From Brevundimonas naejangsanensis DSM 23858 (GTDB taxonomy: Bacteria; Pseudomonadota; Alphaproteobacteria; Caulobacterales; Caulobacteraceae): a stretch of DNA of 64,000 bases. Of this stretch, positions 54,970-63,083 are shown one piece after another. Position 1 is the stretch's first letter; each line of letters begins with the position of its first letter. Position numbers and translations under genes: made by a program. The notes beneath the pieces were generated by a model. The model was not told the origin of the DNA. It was given only the letters and a program-made list of their open reading frames with translations, and searched no databases. The DNA is taken from the NCBI RefSeq assembly GCF_000421705.1, contig NZ_ATXN01000002.1, positions 434,001 through 498,000 of the forward strand. The letters are read 5' to 3'.

Positions 54970-55740
54970 ATGATGGGTCAAGCCGAGTCATCCCTTACAA
55001 CCGCCGCCGATGTTGCGGAATCCGCTCTGCTGGGCGGACGCATACGCCTGCGCCAGCCTGCGCGCGGCTATCGCGCCGGTCTGGACGCGGCTCTGCTGGC
55101 CGCCGCCGTCGGCGCCCGACCGGGCGAACGGGTGATCGAGGCCGGCTGCGGCGCCGGGGCGGTGCTGATGCAGATCGCGGCGCGACGGCCCGAGGCCCTG
55201 CTGACCGGACTGGAGCGCGACGCCGCCGCCGCCGCCCTGGCCCGACAGAACGCCGAGCTGAATCAGGCCGCCTCGCGCACGACCATATTGGACGGCGACG
55301 TGGCCCACGCCTTCCGCGCCCTGGACCTGCCGCCGTTCGACTGGGCGATCAGCAATCCGCCCTTCTTCGACGATCCCGGCGCCCTGCGCGCCCCCGCCGA
55401 GGGCAAGCGCGGCGCCTGGATGGCCGACGACGGCCTGTCCGCCTGGACCGGCTTTTTGCTGAAGGCGGTGCGCGAGGGCGGACGCATCGTCATCATTCAC
55501 CGCGCCGACCGGCTGGCCGACATCCTGGCGCTGCTGGCGCCCAAGGCCGGTTCGTTCGCCATTCGCCCGATCCAGCCTTACGTCGATCAGCCCGCCAAAC
55601 GGGTGCTGGTCCAGGCCATCAAGACGGGCAAGGCGCCGCTGCGCCTTCTGCCGCCGTTGATCGTACACGACCGCGCGGGGGCCAAGCACACCCTACAGGC
55701 CGAGGCCATTCTGCGCGGCGAGGCCGAACTCGGCTTCTGA
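54970..55740 (+). CDS. TrmN6-like tRNA (adenine-N6) methyltransferase
   Basis: 256 residues, from the first of two adjacent ATGs. It starts with the LLGGRIRLRQPARGYRAGLDAALLAA segment typical of this family. The SAM motif is VIEAGCGAGAVLMQIA, and the N6-adenine catalytic motif is SNPPFF near residue 131. E. coli YfiC/TrmN6 methylates A37 of tRNA-Val; the target here is inferred from similarity. Its promoter must lie inside the 43-base gap to ispB. Confidence 0.87.
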   Translation: MMGQAESSLTTAADVAESALLGGRIRLRQPARGYRAGLDAALLAAAVGARPGERVIEAGCGAGAVLMQIAARRPEALLTGLERDAAAAALARQNAELNQAASRTTILDGDVAHAFRALDLPPFDWAISNPPFFDDPGALRAPAEGKRGAWMADDGLSAWTGFLLKAVREGGRIVIIHRADRLADILALLAPKAGSFAIRPIQPYVDQPAKRVLVQAIKTGKAPLRLLPPLIVHDRAGAKHTLQAEAILRGEAELGF

Positions 55741-55751
55741 CCGCCAGGCCT

Positions 55752-56180
55752 CTACCCCTTCAGCAGGCGATCACGCGCTGCATTGACGCGGGCGGCCAGG
55801 CCTTCGGTCCCGCCCTGATCGGGATGGGCGCGCGCCATCAGGCGTCGCCAGGCGGCCTGCACCGTCTGCGCGTCGGCCCCGGCCGTTACGCCCAGGATCG
55901 CCCGCGCCTCGGCTTCGCTCATCCGCTCTGAGGGCTGAGCCTTCGACGCTACGGGCCTGACGCGCGACTGCACCGCCAGCCAGACCCCGGCCAGCGCCAT
56001 GCCGCCGCTGATCAGCCAGGCCCCGCGCGCCGCCGCCAGCACCGCCCCGGCCAACAGGGCCGCGCTCAGTATCGTCGCCGAAATGCGCCAGTGACCGCGC
56101 CGGGCGCGCTCGGTCTGACGGCCCAGCCGCACCAGAGCCCACAGGGCCACGGCGGCCAGACCCAGCCAGATCAATCCCAT
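55752..56180 (-). CDS. Membrane-anchored DnaJ-domain protein
   Basis: 142 residues. Three hydrophobic segments at the N-terminus (to about residue 70) anchor it. The C-terminal J domain (about 85-140) has the HPD motif in LMARAHPDQGGTEG. It resembles alphaproteobacterial Tim14/DjlA-like co-chaperones that recruit DnaK to the membrane. It lies 25 bases downstream of mipZ on the same strand, probably in the same transcript. Confidence 0.88.
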   Translation of the reverse strand: MGLIWLGLAAVALWALVRLGRQTERARRGHWRISATILSAALLAGAVLAAARGAWLISGGMALAGVWLAVQSRVRPVASKAQPSERMSEAEARAILGVTAGADAQTVQAAWRRLMARAHPDQGGTEGLAARVNAARDRLLKG

Positions 56181-56205
56181 AAAGCTCTATCGGCCCATGA
56201 AGCAG

Positions 56206-57039
56206 TCAGGCCGCCGCGTCCATCGCCGCGATGGCGTCGTCCAGCCCCAGCGCCTGCATCAGATTGCGCATTTCCTGCCGCGCGGCCACGTGGGCCAGCG
56301 ACACCGACACCGGGCGGATATCGTTCGACAGGTCCGCCACCGTCAGGCCGAAGGGGAAGAGTTCGCGATAGATGACCCGGTCGCGCAGGCCCGGCCCGAC
56401 GCGGAAGCCGACCCGTTTGGCCAGCTTGGCCATGCGCGAGGCCAGACGGCGACGGTTGCGGGCCTCGGCCACGGCCAGACGGTTGGTGACCACGATCCAG
56501 TCGATCGTCACCTGGCGGCCCTCGGTGATGGCGCGGTGCTTGCGCGCCTCCCAGACGCTTTCCGAATAGATCGAGGGGCGGATCAGATCCAGCGTCACCG
56601 GGTCCACCTCGCCCAGCAGGTCGAAGTCGACGAAGCTGTCGTTCATCGGAGTGACGATCTGATCAGCCCGGCCATGCGCGGCGCGCGACAGCGGCGTATC
56701 CCCGCCCGGCGTATCGATCAGGATGACATCCGCCGACGACTTGGCGTAGCTGAACGCCGCCTCGAAACGCGACAACTGCTCGGCCTCATCCGCCTTATGC
56801 AGCACCTTGCCGTCGCCCATGTCGGGAACAATGGGCAGCGGCAGCACATGGCCGTTGGCCTTGGTCCAGGCGGCGCGGTTGGCGAAGAAACGCTCCAGCG
56901 AGCGCTGGCGCAGGTCCAGGTCGATGATGGCGACCTTGCGACCGGCATGAAGAAGGCCGGTGGCGATGTGAATGGCCAGGGTGGACTTACCCGCCCCGCC
57001 CTTTTCATTGCCGATGACGATGACCTGAGGCTGCGCCAT
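56206..57039 (-). CDS. mipZ: Division-plane positioning ATPase MipZ
   Basis: ParA-like P-loop ATPase that in Caulobacter forms polar gradients through ParB and blocks FtsZ assembly away from midcell. 277 residues from MAQPQVIVIG. The deviant Walker A motif is GNEKGGAGKST, with Walker B in VILIDTPGGD, followed by PMNDSFVDFDLLGEVD and WIVVTNRLAVAEARNRRR, strongly typical of MipZ. A GTG four codons upstream is possible but GGGA precedes this ATG. This gene strongly indicates Caulobacterales or related Alphaproteobacteria. Confidence 0.94.
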   Translation of the reverse strand: MAQPQVIVIGNEKGGAGKSTLAIHIATGLLHAGRKVAIIDLDLRQRSLERFFANRAAWTKANGHVLPLPIVPDMGDGKVLHKADEAEQLSRFEAAFSYAKSSADVILIDTPGGDTPLSRAAHGRADQIVTPMNDSFVDFDLLGEVDPVTLDLIRPSIYSESVWEARKHRAITEGRQVTIDWIVVTNRLAVAEARNRRRLASRMAKLAKRVGFRVGPGLRDRVIYRELFPFGLTVADLSNDIRPVSVSLAHVAARQEMRNLMQALGLDDAIAAMDAAA

Positions 57040-57159
57040 GTGAAATCCCACTGTGATCAGCAGGCGCGACTCATCTCTGTCCGCAGCCCGCCCATGCCGC
57101 GCAGGATCGGGCCGCGAGAGCCAATCGTCAACGAAACCTTAAGCTGAGCCTGTGGACGA

Positions 57160-57792
57160 TCAGGCCGCCGCGCCGCGGGAGCGCGCACACCAGGGGTCCG
57201 ACGCCGCCAGATCGCGGCACAGAATCTGCGCCTGTTCAGCCGTAGCGGCGACTTTCAGCCGGACCAGACGGCGCCCGCCGACCTCGACCGCCTCATAGGC
57301 AGGCTGAAGCCCCGACAGGGCCGCCCCGCCCGTGCTGCGGCTCAGGCGCGACCACGCCGCCCGGGCGCCCTCCTCGCTGGAAAAGGCGCCGAGCTGCACA
57401 TGGCGCGCTGTCGGCATCGATGGTCGTTCCGTCGGGACGGCAGGCGCAGGGGCCTCGAAATCAGGATAGGCGCTTGCGGCAGGCGCAGCCGTAGAGGTCC
57501 GACGAACCTTGCCCAGACCATCCTTGGCGACCAGACCTTCGCGCGCGTCCCACAGCTCGTGCGGGGTCATGAGCTCGACCTTCAGCGGCGCTGCACGCTG
57601 ACGCGGAGTGGCGGACGACGCCGACGCCGCCTGACCCTCCACTTCAGCCGATACCGGAATGGAGGCGACAGACTGCGCCAGAGCCTCGAAACGGTGCGGA
57701 TCGCGCTCGTTCACGCCGCAACTCGCCAGCACCAGGGCGGCCGCCGAAAGGGCGACGGCAAGCGGCAGTCGAGGCAGGACGGGCTGGACCAT
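57160..57792 (-). CDS. SPOR-domain lipoprotein
   Basis: 210 residues. A lipoprotein signal peptide with lipobox VLASC at about residue 25 is followed by a linker rich in Ala/Ser/Pro and a C-terminal SPOR domain from about residue 130 (HVQLGAFSSEEGARAAWSRLS to the end). The last strand contains two cysteines (ILCRDLAASDPWCARS). SPOR domains bind denuded glycan strands at the division septum. Its neighbour mipZ fits a division role (inference). Confidence 0.87.
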   Translation of the reverse strand: MVQPVLPRLPLAVALSAAALVLASCGVNERDPHRFEALAQSVASIPVSAEVEGQAASASSATPRQRAAPLKVELMTPHELWDAREGLVAKDGLGKVRRTSTAAPAASAYPDFEAPAPAVPTERPSMPTARHVQLGAFSSEEGARAAWSRLSRSTGGAALSGLQPAYEAVEVGGRRLVRLKVAATAEQAQILCRDLAASDPWCARSRGAAA

Positions 57793-57840
57793 GACGCCAC
57801 CCTCGCCCGCCCTGCTTTGAGACGGAGTTAACGCGCCGAG

Positions 57841-58602
57841 TCAGCCTATGGCGCCGACGCCGCCCTCGATCTCTCCCGGCGCCACATCGGCGTCGGTCAG
57901 GGCCAGGGTCCAGCCGTGGTGCGTATTCAGGCCCCAGCGACGCGCGCCCGAGCCGTCGCCCGCATCGCCGCCCGCCGTGACCACCACGCGGCGGCCCTTG
58001 GGCAGGGCCGGCGGATCAATCTTGCCAACGGCCAGAGACGTCGGCGTCTCGCCGCCGTAACCGTCGAACACGCTCAGCATCGACCACTCGCGACGCAGGC
58101 CGATCCACCAGGGATCATCGCCGCTGATGGACAGGACCGCCACGCCCTTGCCCTCGGCCGCATGAGCCAGAGCGGCCTGCGGATCGAGGACCAGCTTGAT
58201 GTCGGCGGCGGCGCCGAAGCGCAGGCGGGCGCCGTCCACCGCCTTGGATGGATCGATCGGGGCCCAGACCTGGACCTGCAGACGACCCTGGCGCGCCAGA
58301 CCCCAGCCGACGATCTCGCGCCACAGGTGTTCGACGGCTTCGCGGTTTTCAGGGTCGCACTGCTTCAGGATGCGGGCCTGAACGGCCTGCTCGCGATCGG
58401 GGCGCAGCTTGGTGTGGGGGCCGGTCGGCGCGTCCTTGGCCTTGCCCACCTGGGCGGCGACGGACAGGCGGCGCTCGAACAGCTCGAGAATCTGATCGTC
58501 CAGGCTGTCGATTTCGGCGCGCAGGGCGGCCAGCGCCTTCTGTTCGGCGCTCAGTTCAACGGATTCGGCGGGCCAGACTTGCTGGATGGCGGATTGCGAC
58601 AT
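57841..58602 (-). CDS. Chorismate mutase with a C-terminal extension
   Basis: Converts chorismate to prephenate, 253 residues. The AroQ-type chorismate mutase domain occupies about 23-105 (LRAEIDSLDDQILELFERRLSVAAQVGKAK, with active-site Arg and Lys, then PDREQAVQARI). The remaining about 145 residues (LQVQVWAPIDPSKAVDGARLRFG..., DDPWWIGLRREW) look like a separate domain, with no clear ACT or prephenate dehydratase motif. It is downstream of a Phe/Tyr-rich leader peptide, so its expression probably responds to charged tRNA-Phe/Tyr. Ribosome site is weak. Confidence 0.83.
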   Translation of the reverse strand: MSQSAIQQVWPAESVELSAEQKALAALRAEIDSLDDQILELFERRLSVAAQVGKAKDAPTGPHTKLRPDREQAVQARILKQCDPENREAVEHLWREIVGWGLARQGRLQVQVWAPIDPSKAVDGARLRFGAAADIKLVLDPQAALAHAAEGKGVAVLSISGDDPWWIGLRREWSMLSVFDGYGGETPTSLAVGKIDPPALPKGRRVVVTAGGDAGDGSGARRWGLNTHHGWTLALTDADVAPGEIEGGVGAIG

Positions 58603-58650
58603 GGGAGATGGCTTTCGGCATGGATTTCGATGGGGAGGTCGCGTCCCGCC

Positions 58651-58753
58651 GACAGAAGGTCAGGCGTGAACGCGCGTACTGGCCGCTTGGGGAGAAGCGG
58701 TCGCCAGCGAGACTGTCAGGGTTTGGTTAGAAGCCCGACGCCTCAGCCGGCGT
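58651..58753 (-). promoter_or_regulatory. Candidate attenuator structures before chorismate mutase
   Basis: On the minus strand AGGCGT just after the leader stop (58738-58743) can pair either with ACGCC in the last leader codons (58749-58753) or with ACGCCT downstream (58662-58667). Between them lies a strong hairpin, CTGG-CGA-CCGCTT / AAGCGG-CCAG (58679-58707), and GACAG/CTGTC (58651-58655 with 58713-58717) encloses it. Such exclusive pairings are what an attenuator needs. There is no U-run, so control could be rho-dependent or translational. Judged by eye. Confidence 0.5.
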
Positions 58754-58844
58754 ATCGAAAGCCGTAATAGCCGTAGCCAAAATAAAAGCCGGCCACCGCG
58801 CGCGAGGTGGTTTCAAGGGTCATTTGTGCGCGCAGCGAGGACAT
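58743..58844 (-). CDS. Phe/Tyr-rich leader peptide of the chorismate mutase gene
   Basis: 33-residue open frame: ATG at 58844, TGA at 58743-58745. It starts MSSLRAQMTLETTSRAVAG and ends FYFGYGYYGFRYAG, with three Phe and five Tyr in 12 positions. Ribosome stalling on these codons when Phe or Tyr is scarce would change pairing of the following RNA, as in classical attenuators. It is too short for ordinary gene calling. It lies 141 bases before chorismate mutase, preceded by a promoter-like sequence and by the end of the prephenate dehydratase gene. Confidence 0.75.
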   Translation of the reverse strand: MSSLRAQMTLETTSRAVAGFYFGYGYYGFRYAG

Positions 58845-58887
58845 GAATCCGGTCCAGTTTCTGGATCAGGGTTGATCCGACCGGGCC

Positions 58888-58916
58888 TTACAACAGCAAA
58901 TTTTATGCGCGGTCAA
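58888..58916 (-). promoter_or_regulatory. Promoter-like sequence for the leader/chorismate mutase transcript
   Basis: Minus-strand TTGACC (58911-58916) and TTGTAA (58888-58893) are 17 bases apart, a good -35 and a fair -10. The -35 overlaps the stop codon of prephenate dehydratase. The leader start codon lies about 40 bases downstream. Confidence 0.5.
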
Positions 58917-59479
58917 GCCTCAGGAGCCGTAAAGAGGACAAACCGTGTGCGGTTGTCGCTGAAATCCTGCAGATCGTTGCGCAGAACCGACAGGCCATAG
59001 ACCTCAGCCGCGCGAGCGGGCGCGACGGCGGCGCGCGAGACGTCGCCCGCCTCGGCCACCGCAGCGGCCGCGCCCCCGGTGTCGAACACCTCGACGGCCG
59101 TGATCGCCATCTCTTTCAGCGCCTTGGAGCACTGTTGCAGGGCCACAGGGTGGCTCTCGGCCGTCTTCACGTCCGACAGCCGCGCCTCGGGCACGCCCAG
59201 CAGGGCCAGCCGGATCGGCCGCCAGGCGTCGCTGACCGCTACCAGTCCCGCCTCTCGAACAAGCGTAGCGGCGGGCTCGACCACGCCCACGGTCGAGTTC
59301 TCGACCGGGATCAGGGCGCAGTGGCAGTCGCCGCTCAGGACGGCGTCGATCGCCCCCTGAAAGGTCTCGAAGCCGACCGCTTCGTCCCACGGGCGCAGGT
59401 CGAGGCAGGCTTCATGGCTGAAGGCGCCCGGCGCGCCCTGATAGGCGACGCGGCCGGGCGTTTCGTCGTCTGACGTCAT
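58913..59479 (-). CDS. pheA: Prephenate dehydratase lacking the ACT domain
   Basis: Converts prephenate to phenylpyruvate. 188 residues from the ATG overlapping the DAHP synthase stop (ATGA). The catalytic domain is complete: [66 protein letters not shown] and the essential Thr in DNRTRFVLF. It stops 8 residues after that motif, whereas typical enzymes continue with an ACT domain (about 80 residues) that gives Phe feedback. This enzyme should not be feedback-inhibited by Phe in the usual way (inference). Confidence 0.93.
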
Positions 59480-60846
59480 GCGGCCTCGGACCGGGCCTGC
59501 CGCCCGGCCTTGAGGCGCTCGGCGACCAGGAAGGCCAGCTCCAGCGCCTGATCCGCGTTCAGGCGCGGGTCGCAGTGGGTGTGATAACGGCTCGACAGGT
59601 CGTCCTCGGTCACCGCCTGGGCGCCGCCGATGCATTCGGTGACGTTCTGGCCGGTCATTTCCAGGTGGACGCCGCCGGGATGGACGCCCTCGGCCTCGGC
59701 CACGTCGATGAAGGTGCGGACCTCGCCCATGACGCGATCGAACGGACGGGTCTTGTAGCCGTTGCCAGCCTTCAGCGTATTGCCGTGCATCGGGTCGATC
59801 GACCAGATGACGCGCTTGCCCGCCGCCTTCACCGCCCGCATCAGGCCCGGCAGGCGGTCGCCCGCCTTGTCATGGCCGAAGCGGCCGATCAGCGTCAGAC
59901 GGCCCGGAGTGTTGTTCGGGTTCAGGGCGTCGATCAGCGGCAGCAGGTCGTCCGCCGTCATGGTCGGCCCGCACTTGACCCCGATGGGGTTGGAGATGCC
60001 GCGCATGAACTCGATGTGGGCGCCGTCCAGTTGGCGGGTGCGCTCGCCGATCCACAGCATGTGAGCCGAGGTGTCGAACCATTCGCCGGTCGAACCGTCC
60101 AGACGCGTGAGGGCGCTCTCGACGTTCAGCAGCAGGGCTTCGTGGCTGGTGAAGACCTCGACGCGCGACAGGTCGGGATGCGTCTCGGGCGTGACGCCGA
60201 CCGCCTCCATGAAGGCCAGGGCCTCTGTGATCTTGTCAGCCAGCTCGCGGTAGGCCGCGCCCGCGCCGTCGTCGGCGAAGCCCAGAGTCCAGCGGTGGAT
60301 GTTGTAGAGGTCCGCATACCCCCCGCCCGCAAAGGCGCGCAGCAGGTTCAGCGTCGAGGCCGACTGGTTATAGGCGCGGATCAGGCGCTGCGGATCGGGC
60401 GTGCGCTCTTCCGGCGTGAAACCCATGCCGTTGATGATATCGCCGCGATAGGACGGCAGCTCGACCCCACCGATCTCCTCGACCGGCGACGAGCGCGGCT
60501 TGGCGAACTGACCGGCGATGCGGCCCACCTTCACCACCGGCTTGCGACCGGCGAAGGTCAGGACCACCGCCATCTGCAGGATCAGGCGGAAGGTGTCGCG
60601 GATGTTGTCGGTCGAGAACTCCTTGAAGCTCTCGGCGCAGTCGCCGCCCTGCAGCAGGAAGGCGTCGCCCGCCTCGACCTGGGCCAGGTGGCTGGTGAGC
60701 TTGCGCGCCTCGCCCGCAAAGACAAGGGGCGGCATCGCGCGCAGCTCGTCTTCGACGCGCGCCAGTTCGGCGGCGTCCGGATAGTCCGTCGGCATATGCA
60801 GAACGGGCTTGTTTCTCCAGGATTCGGGGGTCCAGCGCTTACTCAT
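59476..60846 (-). CDS. aroG: Class II 3-deoxy-7-phosphoheptulonate (DAHP) synthase
   Basis: First enzyme of the shikimate pathway, condensing PEP and erythrose 4-phosphate. 456 residues, plant/actinobacterial-like class II type: [23 protein letters not shown] (metal Cys), [51 protein letters not shown] and [16 protein letters not shown]. It is the first gene of the aromatic set; prephenate dehydratase overlaps its stop. Only 51 bases separate it from the upstream hydrolase gene, so the promoter is there. Confidence 0.95.
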
Positions 60847-60897
60847 GCCGCCAAGATAGGCTTTTAAGCGATCTGGAACAACAAACCTTGCAGAAAA

Positions 60898-61950
60898 TTA
60901 CCCGATCAGCGGTTTCCATGCCTCACCCTCGGGCAAGGGTGCGAACAAGGCCTCGATCTGGGCGTCCGAAACCGAAGAAAGCTCGGCGGGCGACCACTTC
61001 GGCGCATTGTCCTTATCGATGATGACGGCGCGGACGCCCTCCTGGAAGTCGTGGGTCTGCACCACCCGCCCGCCCAGGGCGTATTCCATCGCCATGTTGT
61101 CGGCGAAGTCGGTCAGGGTCGCCCCCGTGCGGATCTGGCGCAGCGAGACCTTCAGCGACTGCGGCGACTTGGTCTTCAGGATGTCCAGTTGCTTCAGCGC
61201 CCAGTCCGAACCGTCGGCCTGAAGGGCGGCGACGATCTCCTCGACCGTGTCGAAGGCGAACAGGCGGTCAATGGCCTCGCGGTGCGGCGCCAGCGGCGAA
61301 GGCCCAGCGTCCCCGGCGACGCGGTCGGCGACCGCCTTGGGATCGGCAGGCGCGGCCAGCAGATCGGCCTTCAGGCCCTCGATAGCCTCGCTCGGCACGT
61401 AATGAGTGTGAATGCCCAAGGCCACCGTATCCGCCGCCTTCAGCCGCGCGCCGGTCAGGGCCAGCCAGACTCCCGTCTGGCCCGGCAGGCGCGGCAGGAA
61501 CCAGCCGCCGCCCACGTCGGGGAACAGGCCGATGCCGGTTTCAGGCATGGCGTAGGTGGTGCGCTCGGTGGCGATGCGGACGTCGGCGGGTTCGCTGATG
61601 CCCACGCCGCCGCCCATGACGATGCCGTCCACCACCGCCGTGATCGGCTTGGGATAGACGAACATCAGATGGTTGAGTTGATACTCGGCCTTGAAGAAGG
61701 CCTTGGCTTCTGACGCGTCCCCCGCCCCGCTCTCGGCGATCATGCGGATGTCGCCCCCGGCGCAGAAGCCGCGCTCGCCCGCGTGGTCGATCAGCACCGA
61801 CTGAACCGCGTCGTCCGCGCGCCAGGCCGACAACGCCTCGATCATCGCCTCGCACATCGCCCGGTTCAGGGCGTGGATCGCCTTGGGCCGGTTCAGGGTG
61901 ATGCGGCCGACACCGTTCTCGATGCGGGTGATGACTTCGAGTTCGCTCAT
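60898..61950 (-). CDS. 3-hydroxyisobutyryl-CoA hydrolase-type enoyl-CoA hydratase family protein
   Basis: 350-residue crotonase-fold enzyme, start ATG overlapping the acyl-CoA dehydrogenase stop (ATGA). Motifs: RITLNRPKAIHALN, GERGFCAGGDIRM (oxyanion hole), VDGIVMGGGVGIS, MPETGIGLFPDVGGGWFLPRL with the Glu/Asp pair typical of HIBYL-CoA hydrolase, and the long C-terminal region with FVxGVRAVIIDKDNAPKW-like EGVRAVIIDKD. It hydrolyses 3-hydroxyisobutyryl-CoA in valine breakdown, fitting the adjacent dehydrogenase. Confidence 0.88.
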   Translation of the reverse strand: MSELEVITRIENGVGRITLNRPKAIHALNRAMCEAMIEALSAWRADDAVQSVLIDHAGERGFCAGGDIRMIAESGAGDASEAKAFFKAEYQLNHLMFVYPKPITAVVDGIVMGGGVGISEPADVRIATERTTYAMPETGIGLFPDVGGGWFLPRLPGQTGVWLALTGARLKAADTVALGIHTHYVPSEAIEGLKADLLAAPADPKAVADRVAGDAGPSPLAPHREAIDRLFAFDTVEEIVAALQADGSDWALKQLDILKTKSPQSLKVSLRQIRTGATLTDFADNMAMEYALGGRVVQTHDFQEGVRAVIIDKDNAPKWSPAELSSVSDAQIEALFAPLPEGEAWKPLIG

Positions 61951-63083
61951 TTCGCCAGCTCCCGCGCGATGATCACCCGCATGATCTCGTTCGTGCCTTC
62001 CAGAATGCGGTGAACGCGCAGGTCGCGCACGATCCGCTCCAGCGGATAGTCCTTCAGATAGCCGTAGCCGCCGTGCAGCTGCAGCGCCTGATCGGCGATC
62101 TGGAAGCAGGCGTCGGTCGTCAGGCGCTTGGCCATGGCGCACCACTTGGTCTTTTCGGCGTGGCCGGTGTCGATGGCCCAGGCGCCGCGAAGCACCATCA
62201 GACGGGCGGCCTCAAGATCCGTGGCCATGTCCGCCAGCTCGAACTGGGTGTTCTGGAACTGGCCGATCGCCTGACCGAACTGCTTGCGGGCGGCGACGTA
62301 TTCTTGCGCCGTCTCCAGCGCCAGACGTGCCCCGCCCAGCGAACAGGCGGCGATGTTCAGACGCCCGCCGTCCAGACCGGCCATGGCGTATTTGAAGCCC
62401 GCGCCTTCCTCGCCCACCAGATTGGCGACCGGCACCCGGCAGTCGTCGAAGCTGACCACGGCGGTCGGCTGGGCGTTCCAGCCCATCTTCTTCTCATTGG
62501 CGCCGAAAGACAGGCCCGGCGTCCCCGCCTCGACCACCAGGGTCGAGATGCCCTTAGGCCCCTCCCCGCCCGTGCGGACCATGACGACATAGACGTCCGA
62601 CGTCCCGGCGCCGGAAATGAACGCCTTGGCGCCGTTCAGCACATAGTGGTCGCCCTCACGCACCGCCGTCGTTCGCAGCGCCGCCGCGTCCGAGCCCGAG
62701 CCGGGCTCAGTCAGGCAATAGCTGGCGATCTTCTCCATCCCGACCAGCGACGGCACAAAGCGCGCCCGCAGCTCGTCCGAGCCGAAGCTGTCGATCATCC
62801 ACGTCGCCATGTTGTGGATCGAGATGAAGGCCGCCGTCGCCACGTCGCCGCGCGACAGCTCTTCAAAGATCACCGCCGCCTCGACCCGGCCCAGACCCAT
62901 GCCGCCGTGTTCCTCGCCCGTATAGATGCCGGCGAAACCCATCTCGGCGGCAGCCTTCAGCACGTCGACCGGGAAATGCTTGTCCTCGTCCCAGCGAGCC
63001 GAGTGCGGGGCCAGTTCGGCCTCGGCGAAGGCGCGGGCCGCGTCCTGAATGGCGCGTTGATCCTCGGTGAGGGCGAAGTCCAT
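61947..63083 (-). CDS. Acyl-CoA dehydrogenase, probably isobutyryl-CoA dehydrogenase
   Basis: FAD-dependent dehydrogenase, 378 residues. Signature segments: YCLTEPGSGSDAAAL, GAKAFISGAGTSDVYVVMVRTG, KMGWNAQPTAVVSFDDCRVP, RKQFGQAIGQFQNTQFELADM and LQLHGGYGYLKDYPLERIVRDLRVHRILEGTNEIMR. The IHNMATWMIDSFGS and QPTA segments resemble isobutyryl-CoA dehydrogenase. Linked to the hydrolase by ATGA overlap, both point to valine catabolism. Confidence 0.9.
   Translation of the reverse strand: MDFALTEDQRAIQDAARAFAEAELAPHSARWDEDKHFPVDVLKAAAEMGFAGIYTGEEHGGMGLGRVEAAVIFEELSRGDVATAAFISIHNMATWMIDSFGSDELRARFVPSLVGMEKIASYCLTEPGSGSDAAALRTTAVREGDHYVLNGAKAFISGAGTSDVYVVMVRTGGEGPKGISTLVVEAGTPGLSFGANEKKMGWNAQPTAVVSFDDCRVPVANLVGEEGAGFKYAMAGLDGGRLNIAACSLGGARLALETAQEYVAARKQFGQAIGQFQNTQFELADMATDLEAARLMVLRGAWAIDTGHAEKTKWCAMAKRLTTDACFQIADQALQLHGGYGYLKDYPLERIVRDLRVHRILEGTNEIMRVIIARELAK

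Follow-up and report, generated by a model that had tools for sequence, protein, structure and literature searches.

Organization of the chorismate mutase locus

The window, that is, the whole stretch of 64,000 nucleotides from Brevundimonas naejangsanensis DSM 23858 analysed here, carries on its minus strand the genes for a class II DAHP synthase, a prephenate dehydratase (PDT), a leader ORF, a chorismate mutase (CM) and a SPOR-domain protein, in this order. The leader ORF is unannotated. It had been proposed from the sequence alone as a 33-codon frame rich in Phe and Tyr, and translation confirms both the frame and its place between the PDT and CM genes (Table 1). The leader peptide ends in FYFGYGYYGFRYAG, and eight of the 12 codons encoding FYFGYGYYGFRY do specify Phe or Tyr. 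At the Phe plus Tyr rate of the neighbouring frames (4.6%, from 2123 codons in seven frames), the binomial probability of such a composition is about 9e-9 per position. The ORF contains the run of codons for the product of the pathway by which attenuators are recognized.

Table 1. Features of the leader region and of the neighbouring genes (positions in the window).
Feature	Position	Strand	Description or basis
Class II DAHP synthase	59476..60846	minus	PF01474
Prephenate dehydratase	58913..59476	minus	187 aa, without ACT domain; PF00800 only
Promoter-like TTGACC-17-TTGTAA	58888..58916	minus	By reading; TTGACC 58916-58911, TTGTAA 58893-58888; predicted start near 58880
5′ UTR hairpin GGATCA/TGATCC	58863..58878	minus	Before leader start
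Leader ORF MSSLRAQMTLETTSRAVAGFYFGYGYYGFRYAG	58743..58844	minus	33 codons + TGA; translation and comparison across loci
Sensor codons, Phe/Tyr run FYFGYGYYGFRY	58752..58787	minus	Aromatic conservation in 90 loci
Anti-ribosome-binding-site element GGCTTTCGAT	58754..58763	minus	Within codons Gly-Phe-Arg-Tyr
Hairpin A, CGCCGGC-T-GAGGC... with ...CTCGCTGGCG	58702..58752	minus	Contains leader stop codon
Hairpin B, CCGCTT/AAGCGG	58683..58700	minus	One base 3′ of hairpin A
Distal ATCGAAA	58625..58631	minus	Second complement of leader element, by reading
CM ribosome-binding site (GAAAG) and flanks CGAAAGCC	58610..58617	minus	Complement of leader GGCTTTCG
Chorismate mutase	57841..58602	minus	CM_2 at residues 27-105 (PF01817); C-terminal half with PDT-like predicted fold

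Scoring below the cut-off, the PDT aligns to positions 6-181 of an NCBIfam PDT model that has 283 positions. As the match stops at position 181, the ACT end is missing. Such a loss would remove one path of feedback, a possible reason for placing control at the CM. The CM itself had been described as a stand-alone enzyme, which has to be qualified in two respects. On the one hand, the genome (G000), which has a single PDT, encodes a further CM_2 protein, about 121 aa long (L265, 1399-1764), whose gene overlaps the end of a gene that by eye is ferredoxin-NADP-reductase-like. On the other hand, the CM of the window is longer than its CM_2 domain, and the remainder has no Pfam match above the cut-off. 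A Foldseek search with the structure model of the CM (mean pLDDT 86) was negative up to E 0.001, and PDT folds emerged only on a second look, where the predicted fold of residues 107-253 aligned best with prephenate dehydratases (3mwb: Z 11.4, rmsd 3.4 over 139 residues). Judging from this predicted fold, the C-terminal half possibly derives, by decay or by repurposing, from the dehydratase part of a P-protein-like fusion.

The predicted promoter and the 5′ UTR

The promoter-like boxes claimed upstream of the leader were found again by reading, with a spacing of 17 nt; a consensus scan for a sigma-70 site at this place found none. All 95 loci examined have TTGAC no more than 130 nt before the leader ATG, which was chosen mechanically. 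The distance to this ATG is 66-80 nt in 61 loci, 35-36 nt in 15, 26 nt in eight and another value in 11, nine of which have less than 30 nt and allow no promoter reading for that ATG. In the eight loci with 26 nt, a second Met codon lies 9 nt further on, so that a distance of 35 nt, suited to a leaderless transcript, is obtained there as well. Overall, the spacing supports the predicted promoter. In the window, the -35 box overlaps the stop codon of the PDT gene, and part of the TTGAC conservation may therefore be coding.

The leaders with an ATG 35-36 nt after TTGAC include those of L036, L041, L072, L079, L082 and L089, among others. Considering this distance, they may be translated from leaderless transcripts. 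In the long 5′ UTRs, a stem of at least five pairs is present in 58 of 61 loci, a count made without a shuffle control, and its arms vary between species by eye.

Distribution of the leader among relatives

A CM was found in 98 of the 101 Brevundimonas genomes drawn. The loci examined for the leader, also 101 in number, comprise 90 loci from 89 of these 98 genomes, those of eight more of the 98 and those of three genus genomes from the family search. All have enough upstream DNA; L261, with 92 nt upstream, and G051, where the 5′ end of CM is missing, lie outside this count. L032 is identical to L030 and was dropped from set A1, and three contigs were met twice (L179 = L253, L199 = L255, L216 = L254). 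Genomes are related, so that locus counts are not independent. The counts for pairing, masking, GAARG and stall position given below cover the first 90 loci, not the later 11.

The leader is present in 101 of the 101 loci. The sequence-only reading had proposed an alignment of relatives, in which the aromatic codons should be conserved while the rest drifts, and this is what is observed throughout the genus: the aromatic run is kept and the N-terminus of the leader drifts. The C-terminal FRYAG is exact in 98 loci (88/90 and 10/11), the others having FRRAG (two) or FRHAG (one).

Beyond the genus, the family search found a CM in 106 genomes. Twenty loci were picked from these and the leader was seen in five (L099-L103), the other 15 being without it. 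A scan of 84,980 species genomes with a pattern of the element returned 107 matches, 98 of them with a CM directly downstream. Among the other nine, three show the leader and are cut at the end of the locus, and six are chance-like, with neither a CM downstream nor a leader-like run. The titled matches are mostly Brevundimonas, including the cultured Brevundimonas diminuta ATCC 11568 (L174), together with Caulobacter sp. S45, 17J65-9 and 17J80-11; further matches come from Caulobacterales and other metagenome bins. Viral contigs gave no match to the pattern. Two contigs titled 'Bordetella sp.' (L194 and L230) also carry the leader element and a CM, that of L194 being 96% identical over the part available, and probably represent mis-binned metagenome assemblies.

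In the wider Alphaproteobacteria, 30 loci of CM homologues were collected, two of them from the genus of the window, and 27 of the 28 others could be scanned (L288 is cut). No FRYAG-ending ORF was found among the best aromatic ORFs listed for these 27 loci, where the best aromatic window reaches 7/12 (L277). Their commonest aromatic ORF, VNVFFDF, was rejected as a candidate: it reflects a conserved motif, lies on the wrong strand and stands beside a divergent metX-like gene. A conserved motif close to AAAATCAAAGAAAACRTTGACA precedes the CM homologue, on the strand opposite to it, in 17 of 25 loci scanned (L270, L271, L274, L276, L277, L278, L279, L281, L282, L284, L285, L287, L289, L290, L292, L293 and L296). 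TAGCTA often follows about 17 nt on, and the divergent neighbour is MetX-like by eye in four translated loci. An Rfam search of eight of these loci gave one sub-threshold match, located elsewhere. The motif is possibly a promoter with a regulator site.

Two further searches were made with models of the leader. The exact peptide pattern GGNTTYMGNTAYGCNGGNTRR gave eight matches in 385 genomes of the class; three are real and belong to the genus, and the other five (L092, L095-L098) are chance matches in other frames. The RNA model R1 gave 26 matches in 299 genomes of the order, a draw that may not include the leader-bearing genera g3, g9 and g10. All 26 are within the genus, one member of which, G183, gave none. 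In the 385 genomes of the class, R1 gave four matches; a weak one outside the genus (G561, E 5e-4) was taken for chance on reading its sequence. Since this search scored 12-15 candidates per genome under strict filters, its misses are no proof of absence.

Two selections on the leader codons

Codons are numbered hereafter from the F of FRYAG (codon 0). In the 90 genus loci, the N-terminal half of the leader drifts and the Phe/Tyr run is reshuffled, and the last codons, GGC TTT CGA TAC GCC GGC TGA, are fixed nearly letter for letter. The share of aromatic residues is 94, 93, 100 and 98% at codons -3, -2, 0 and +2, respectively, and varies from 3 to 64% at codons -9 to -4. Phe and Tyr replace each other within the run: codon -3 is F in 62 loci and Y in 23, codon -2 is Y in 80 and F in four. 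Trp is absent from the last 17 codons in all 95 leaders. The mixed Phe and Tyr sensor of the sequence-only reading agrees with these replacements.

Upstream of FRYAG, the Phe and Tyr codons are mixed (TAT 135, TTC 119, TAC 118, TTT 73). In FRYAG itself they are frozen: TTT 90/90, CGA 90/90, TAC 88/90, GCC 90/90 and GGC 89/90. In the seven neighbouring frames, CGA accounts for 4 of 150 Arg codons and TTT for 9 of 68 Phe codons. As read from these sequences, two selections are visible, one on aromatic codons as such and the other on fixed RNA letters at the end of the leader. A leader peptide acting in cis on the CM in response to Phe and Tyr is very probable.

Hairpins A and B

Exclusive base-pairing segments had been claimed downstream of the leader. 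Two conserved hairpins, A and B, are indeed found there; they are adjacent and compatible, and coexist in the minimum-energy folds examined. Their conservation was evaluated with 34 representatives of the 95 loci (set A2). Hairpin A has 18 pairs, with 88.8% of the cells paired, four pairs changed on both sides and five invariant. Hairpin B has eight pairs, with 91.0% paired and five changed on both sides. Together, 89.5% of 877 cells are paired, and the covariation score is 0.172; slid versions score 0.07-0.09 and shuffles 0.134, none of 500 shuffles reaching the observed value. Nine pairs have changed on both sides, for a shuffle mean of 5.6 (10/500 shuffles as high), and further pair types number 28, for 25.6 (75/500 as high). 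The shuffles leave the relatedness of the genomes in place.

Intrinsic termination at these hairpins is unlikely. None of the 95 loci has a T-run (at least five T in 8 nt, at most 12 nt after hairpin A or B), three (L011, L014 and L102) have five or more consecutive T somewhere from the leader to CM, and a scan of the window for intrinsic terminators found none between the leader and CM. A search of positions 55000-62000 against Rfam 15, at E up to 5, gave five matches, none in the leader region and all below the gathering score. Thus, from the ribosome-mediated attenuation put forward by the sequence-only reading, an aromatic leader ORF for the CM is retained and classical transcription attenuation is not.

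Predicted pairing of the leader end with the ribosome-binding site of CM

The leader segment GGCUUUCGA is complementary to the CM ribosome-binding site CGAAAGCC. In the window, GGCTTTCG and CGAAAGCC can form eight Watson-Crick pairs (-14.5 kcal/mol), the strongest pairing by energy among 46 gene starts, the control starts being the first ATG or GTG of long open frames rather than annotated starts. In the genus, an unbroken Watson-Crick run of at least seven between leader GGCUUUCGAUAC and the spacer is found in 85 of 90 loci. The mean run is 7.8 versus 4.7 in shuffles, of which 169 of 4500 have one as long. Among the 11 later loci, seven have a run of at least seven, including L255, where it is at a different place.

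In 86 of 90 loci, the ribosome-binding site takes the form of a GAARG whose end lies 5-10 nt upstream of the start of CM; GGAG, GAGG and AGGA are absent from positions -20 to -4 of CM in all 95 loci. Because any GAAAG fits CUUUC, GAARG was held fixed in a further control with the rest shuffled, and a run of at least seven was still found in 72 of 86 loci versus 34% of controls. The flanks of GAARG match the need to pair with G: a pyrimidine precedes it in 86 of 86 loci and occupies the two following positions in 82 and 85 of 86. The anti-site arm is nearly invariant, so that covariation is uninformative on this pairing, apart from L076. This locus, the only one of the 90 in which GGC is replaced by GAG, has GAAACTC in its spacer, complementary to GAGTTTC.

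Partition-function folds, by a method that excludes pseudoknots, pair the leader element with the 50 nt that immediately precede CM, at a mean probability of 0.89. When the first 12 nt of the leader end are masked, the accessibility at positions -16 to -6 rises from 0.23 to 0.56, the value for shuffled spacers being 0.56-0.57. The gain exceeds 0.15 in 78 of 90 loci versus 10.6% of 1080 shuffled spacers. In folds of the whole leader in the 90 loci, the free fraction of the site is 0.17 in the absence of a ribosome; it is 0.08-0.19 while the ribosomal A site occupies codons -16 to -6, and 0.32-0.52 when it occupies codons -5 to +6. Hence, the modelled site opens from codon -5, and aromatic conservation peaks (0.93-1.0) at codons -3, -2, 0 and +2.

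Two properties of these folds bear on how such a switch would work. A ribosome terminating at the leader stop codon also opens the modelled site (0.42), so that in fed cells the site would be closed only between ribosomes. Codons -9 to -7 are aromatic in 36-62% of the loci and a stall there leaves the modelled site slightly more closed; being too far upstream, such stalls could make severe starvation counter induction. In the window, the site is 0.34 free without a ribosome, 0.64 and 0.40 free with stalls at -3 and -2, and 0.28 and 0.13 free with stalls at 0 and +2.

Pairing is absent or weak in six divergent loci, all of which keep the leader core. Masking is without effect in L101 and L102 (Caulobacter sp. 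17J65-9 and 17J80-11), L199 (= L255) and L216 (= L254); it gives a modest gain in L179 (= L253), and L256 has a run of five bases only. L179, L199, L216 and L256 are divergent genus loci fetched later and do not belong to the set of 90. The CMs of these exceptions are 40-49% identical to that of the window, though L099, L100 and L103 do show the pairing with CM identities of 39-47%. Either the pairing has been lost in some lines, or an older device has acquired it more than once. Since loci without pairing keep the leader core, UUUCGAU may have another role.

A proposed translational attenuator and alternative readings

Computation has thus provided a conserved leader ORF linked to the CM, two hairpins, complementary segments and a site that opens when modelled. 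These results can be brought together in a model of translational attenuation in cis, responding to Phe and Tyr together. A promoter behind the PDT gene would produce an RNA comprising the leader ORF, hairpins A and B as a scaffold, and CM. By default, GGCUUUCGAU in the leader (codons Gly-Phe-Arg-Tyr) would pair with CGAAAGCC at the ribosome-binding site, closing a multi-branched fold that encloses A and B, with poor translation of CM as the result. When charged Phe- or Tyr-tRNA becomes scarce, a ribosome would wait at the Phe/Tyr codons beside or inside the element and cover it; the site would be freed, CM translated and prephenate increased for both amino acids. In this model, we infer that the predicted promoter is used, that the leader is translated, that ribosomes stall on it and that control runs in the direction described. 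For the full model, a probability of about 0.58 seems reasonable.

Its main rival, which we regard as unlikely, is ribosome-mediated transcription attenuation linked to Rho. The leader ribosome would set the exposure of a C-rich spacer, the hairpins would set the timing and Rho would stop transcription before or early in CM. The aromatic leader fits this mechanism, and any terminator would need Rho since no T-run follows the hairpins. Spacers have mean C and G contents of 0.39 and 0.19, with a C/G ratio of 1.5 or more in 89 of 90 loci, and the 6-T run of L102 lies in the spacer of a locus without ribosome-binding-site pairing. However, these spacers have a short median length of 49 nt, what is conserved between hairpin B and CM is the complement at the ribosome-binding site, and none of the folds seen makes A and B mutually exclusive. 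Rho control may also add to translational control, a closed CM site leaving the RNA untranslated.

It is less probable still that the folded RNA is the target of a protein or a small molecule, with a secondary role for the aromatic ORF. The very rigid RNA core (TTTCGA, CGCCGG, GGCGACCG) would suit such a ligand, as would the codon changes reported without effect on regulation for the LEU element of Actinobacteria (PMC1262725, consulted in part). A pure RNA site would not, however, need an aromatic run, and this run is kept through changes of codon and order and through exchanges of F and Y. An even lower probability is assigned to a small protein or arrest peptide whose conserved end, GFRYAG, would act as a peptide. 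The persistence of FRYAG in L101 and L102, where pairing is lost, would be explained in this way, but the frozen third positions, with the rare CGA in every locus, point to RNA, the FRRAG and FRHAG variants occur and the N-terminus is not conserved. Finally, a chance aromatic ORF, conceivable because short ORFs abound (76 over 7 kb), is refuted by the comparison, the leader being kept in every genus locus examined and in some other genera.

Relation to known systems

The translational attenuator proposed here may be compared with several known devices. In the trp, his and pheA attenuators of enteric bacteria, a leader peptide rich in the product precedes a biosynthetic gene and is accompanied by ordered RNA hairpins. 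The present leader likewise combines an amino-acid-rich leader before a biosynthetic gene with ordered hairpins. It differs by the lack of a T-run terminator, by A and B being adjacent and coexisting in the folds seen, and by sensor codons that would themselves form the control stem and serve for two amino acids at once. The erm/cat type of translational attenuator responds to antibiotics by means of competing hairpins placed downstream. As in that type, a ribosome stalled in the leader would expose a masked ribosome-binding site, but the mask would be a direct long-range pairing by the sensor codons.

The closest published relative that we found, by analogy and from the part of the source consulted, is the LEU element upstream of leuA in Actinobacteria, in which leucine codons and the leuA Shine-Dalgarno box form the base stem (PMC1262725). 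Both have a short leader ORF with codons for the amino acid of the pathway and a compact RNA. The other parts of an attenuator are reported missing from the LEU element in that part of the source, which we count as a shared trait. The LEU element has a leucine run, leuA and a pseudoknot, whereas the present leader has a Phe/Tyr run, chorismate mutase and two adjacent hairpins, and belongs to Caulobacteraceae; no sequence relation is claimed. In the same part, its authors cite evidence that codon changes left regulation unaltered and favour a regulatory protein (PMC1262725). By analogy, this may be taken as a warning for the translational model. Another article, also consulted in part, cites a 2004 survey of proteobacterial attenuators for an ilvB leader (PMC1273637). 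Within the open literature, searched by titles and the beginnings of abstracts, with subscription papers outside its scope, no report of the present element was found.

Implications

The present analysis brings to light a probable control element of the leader-peptide kind for chorismate mutase, to which Rfam 15 offers no match. It is tempting, though still tentative, to imagine an alphaproteobacterial class of attenuators in which the sensor codons are the anti-Shine-Dalgarno strand and two amino acids are sensed at their shared branch point, compensating for a PDT devoid of its ACT feedback domain. If the model is true, amino-acid supply would control translation via one helix that joins sensor and output, and Phe and Tyr would be read together at prephenate.
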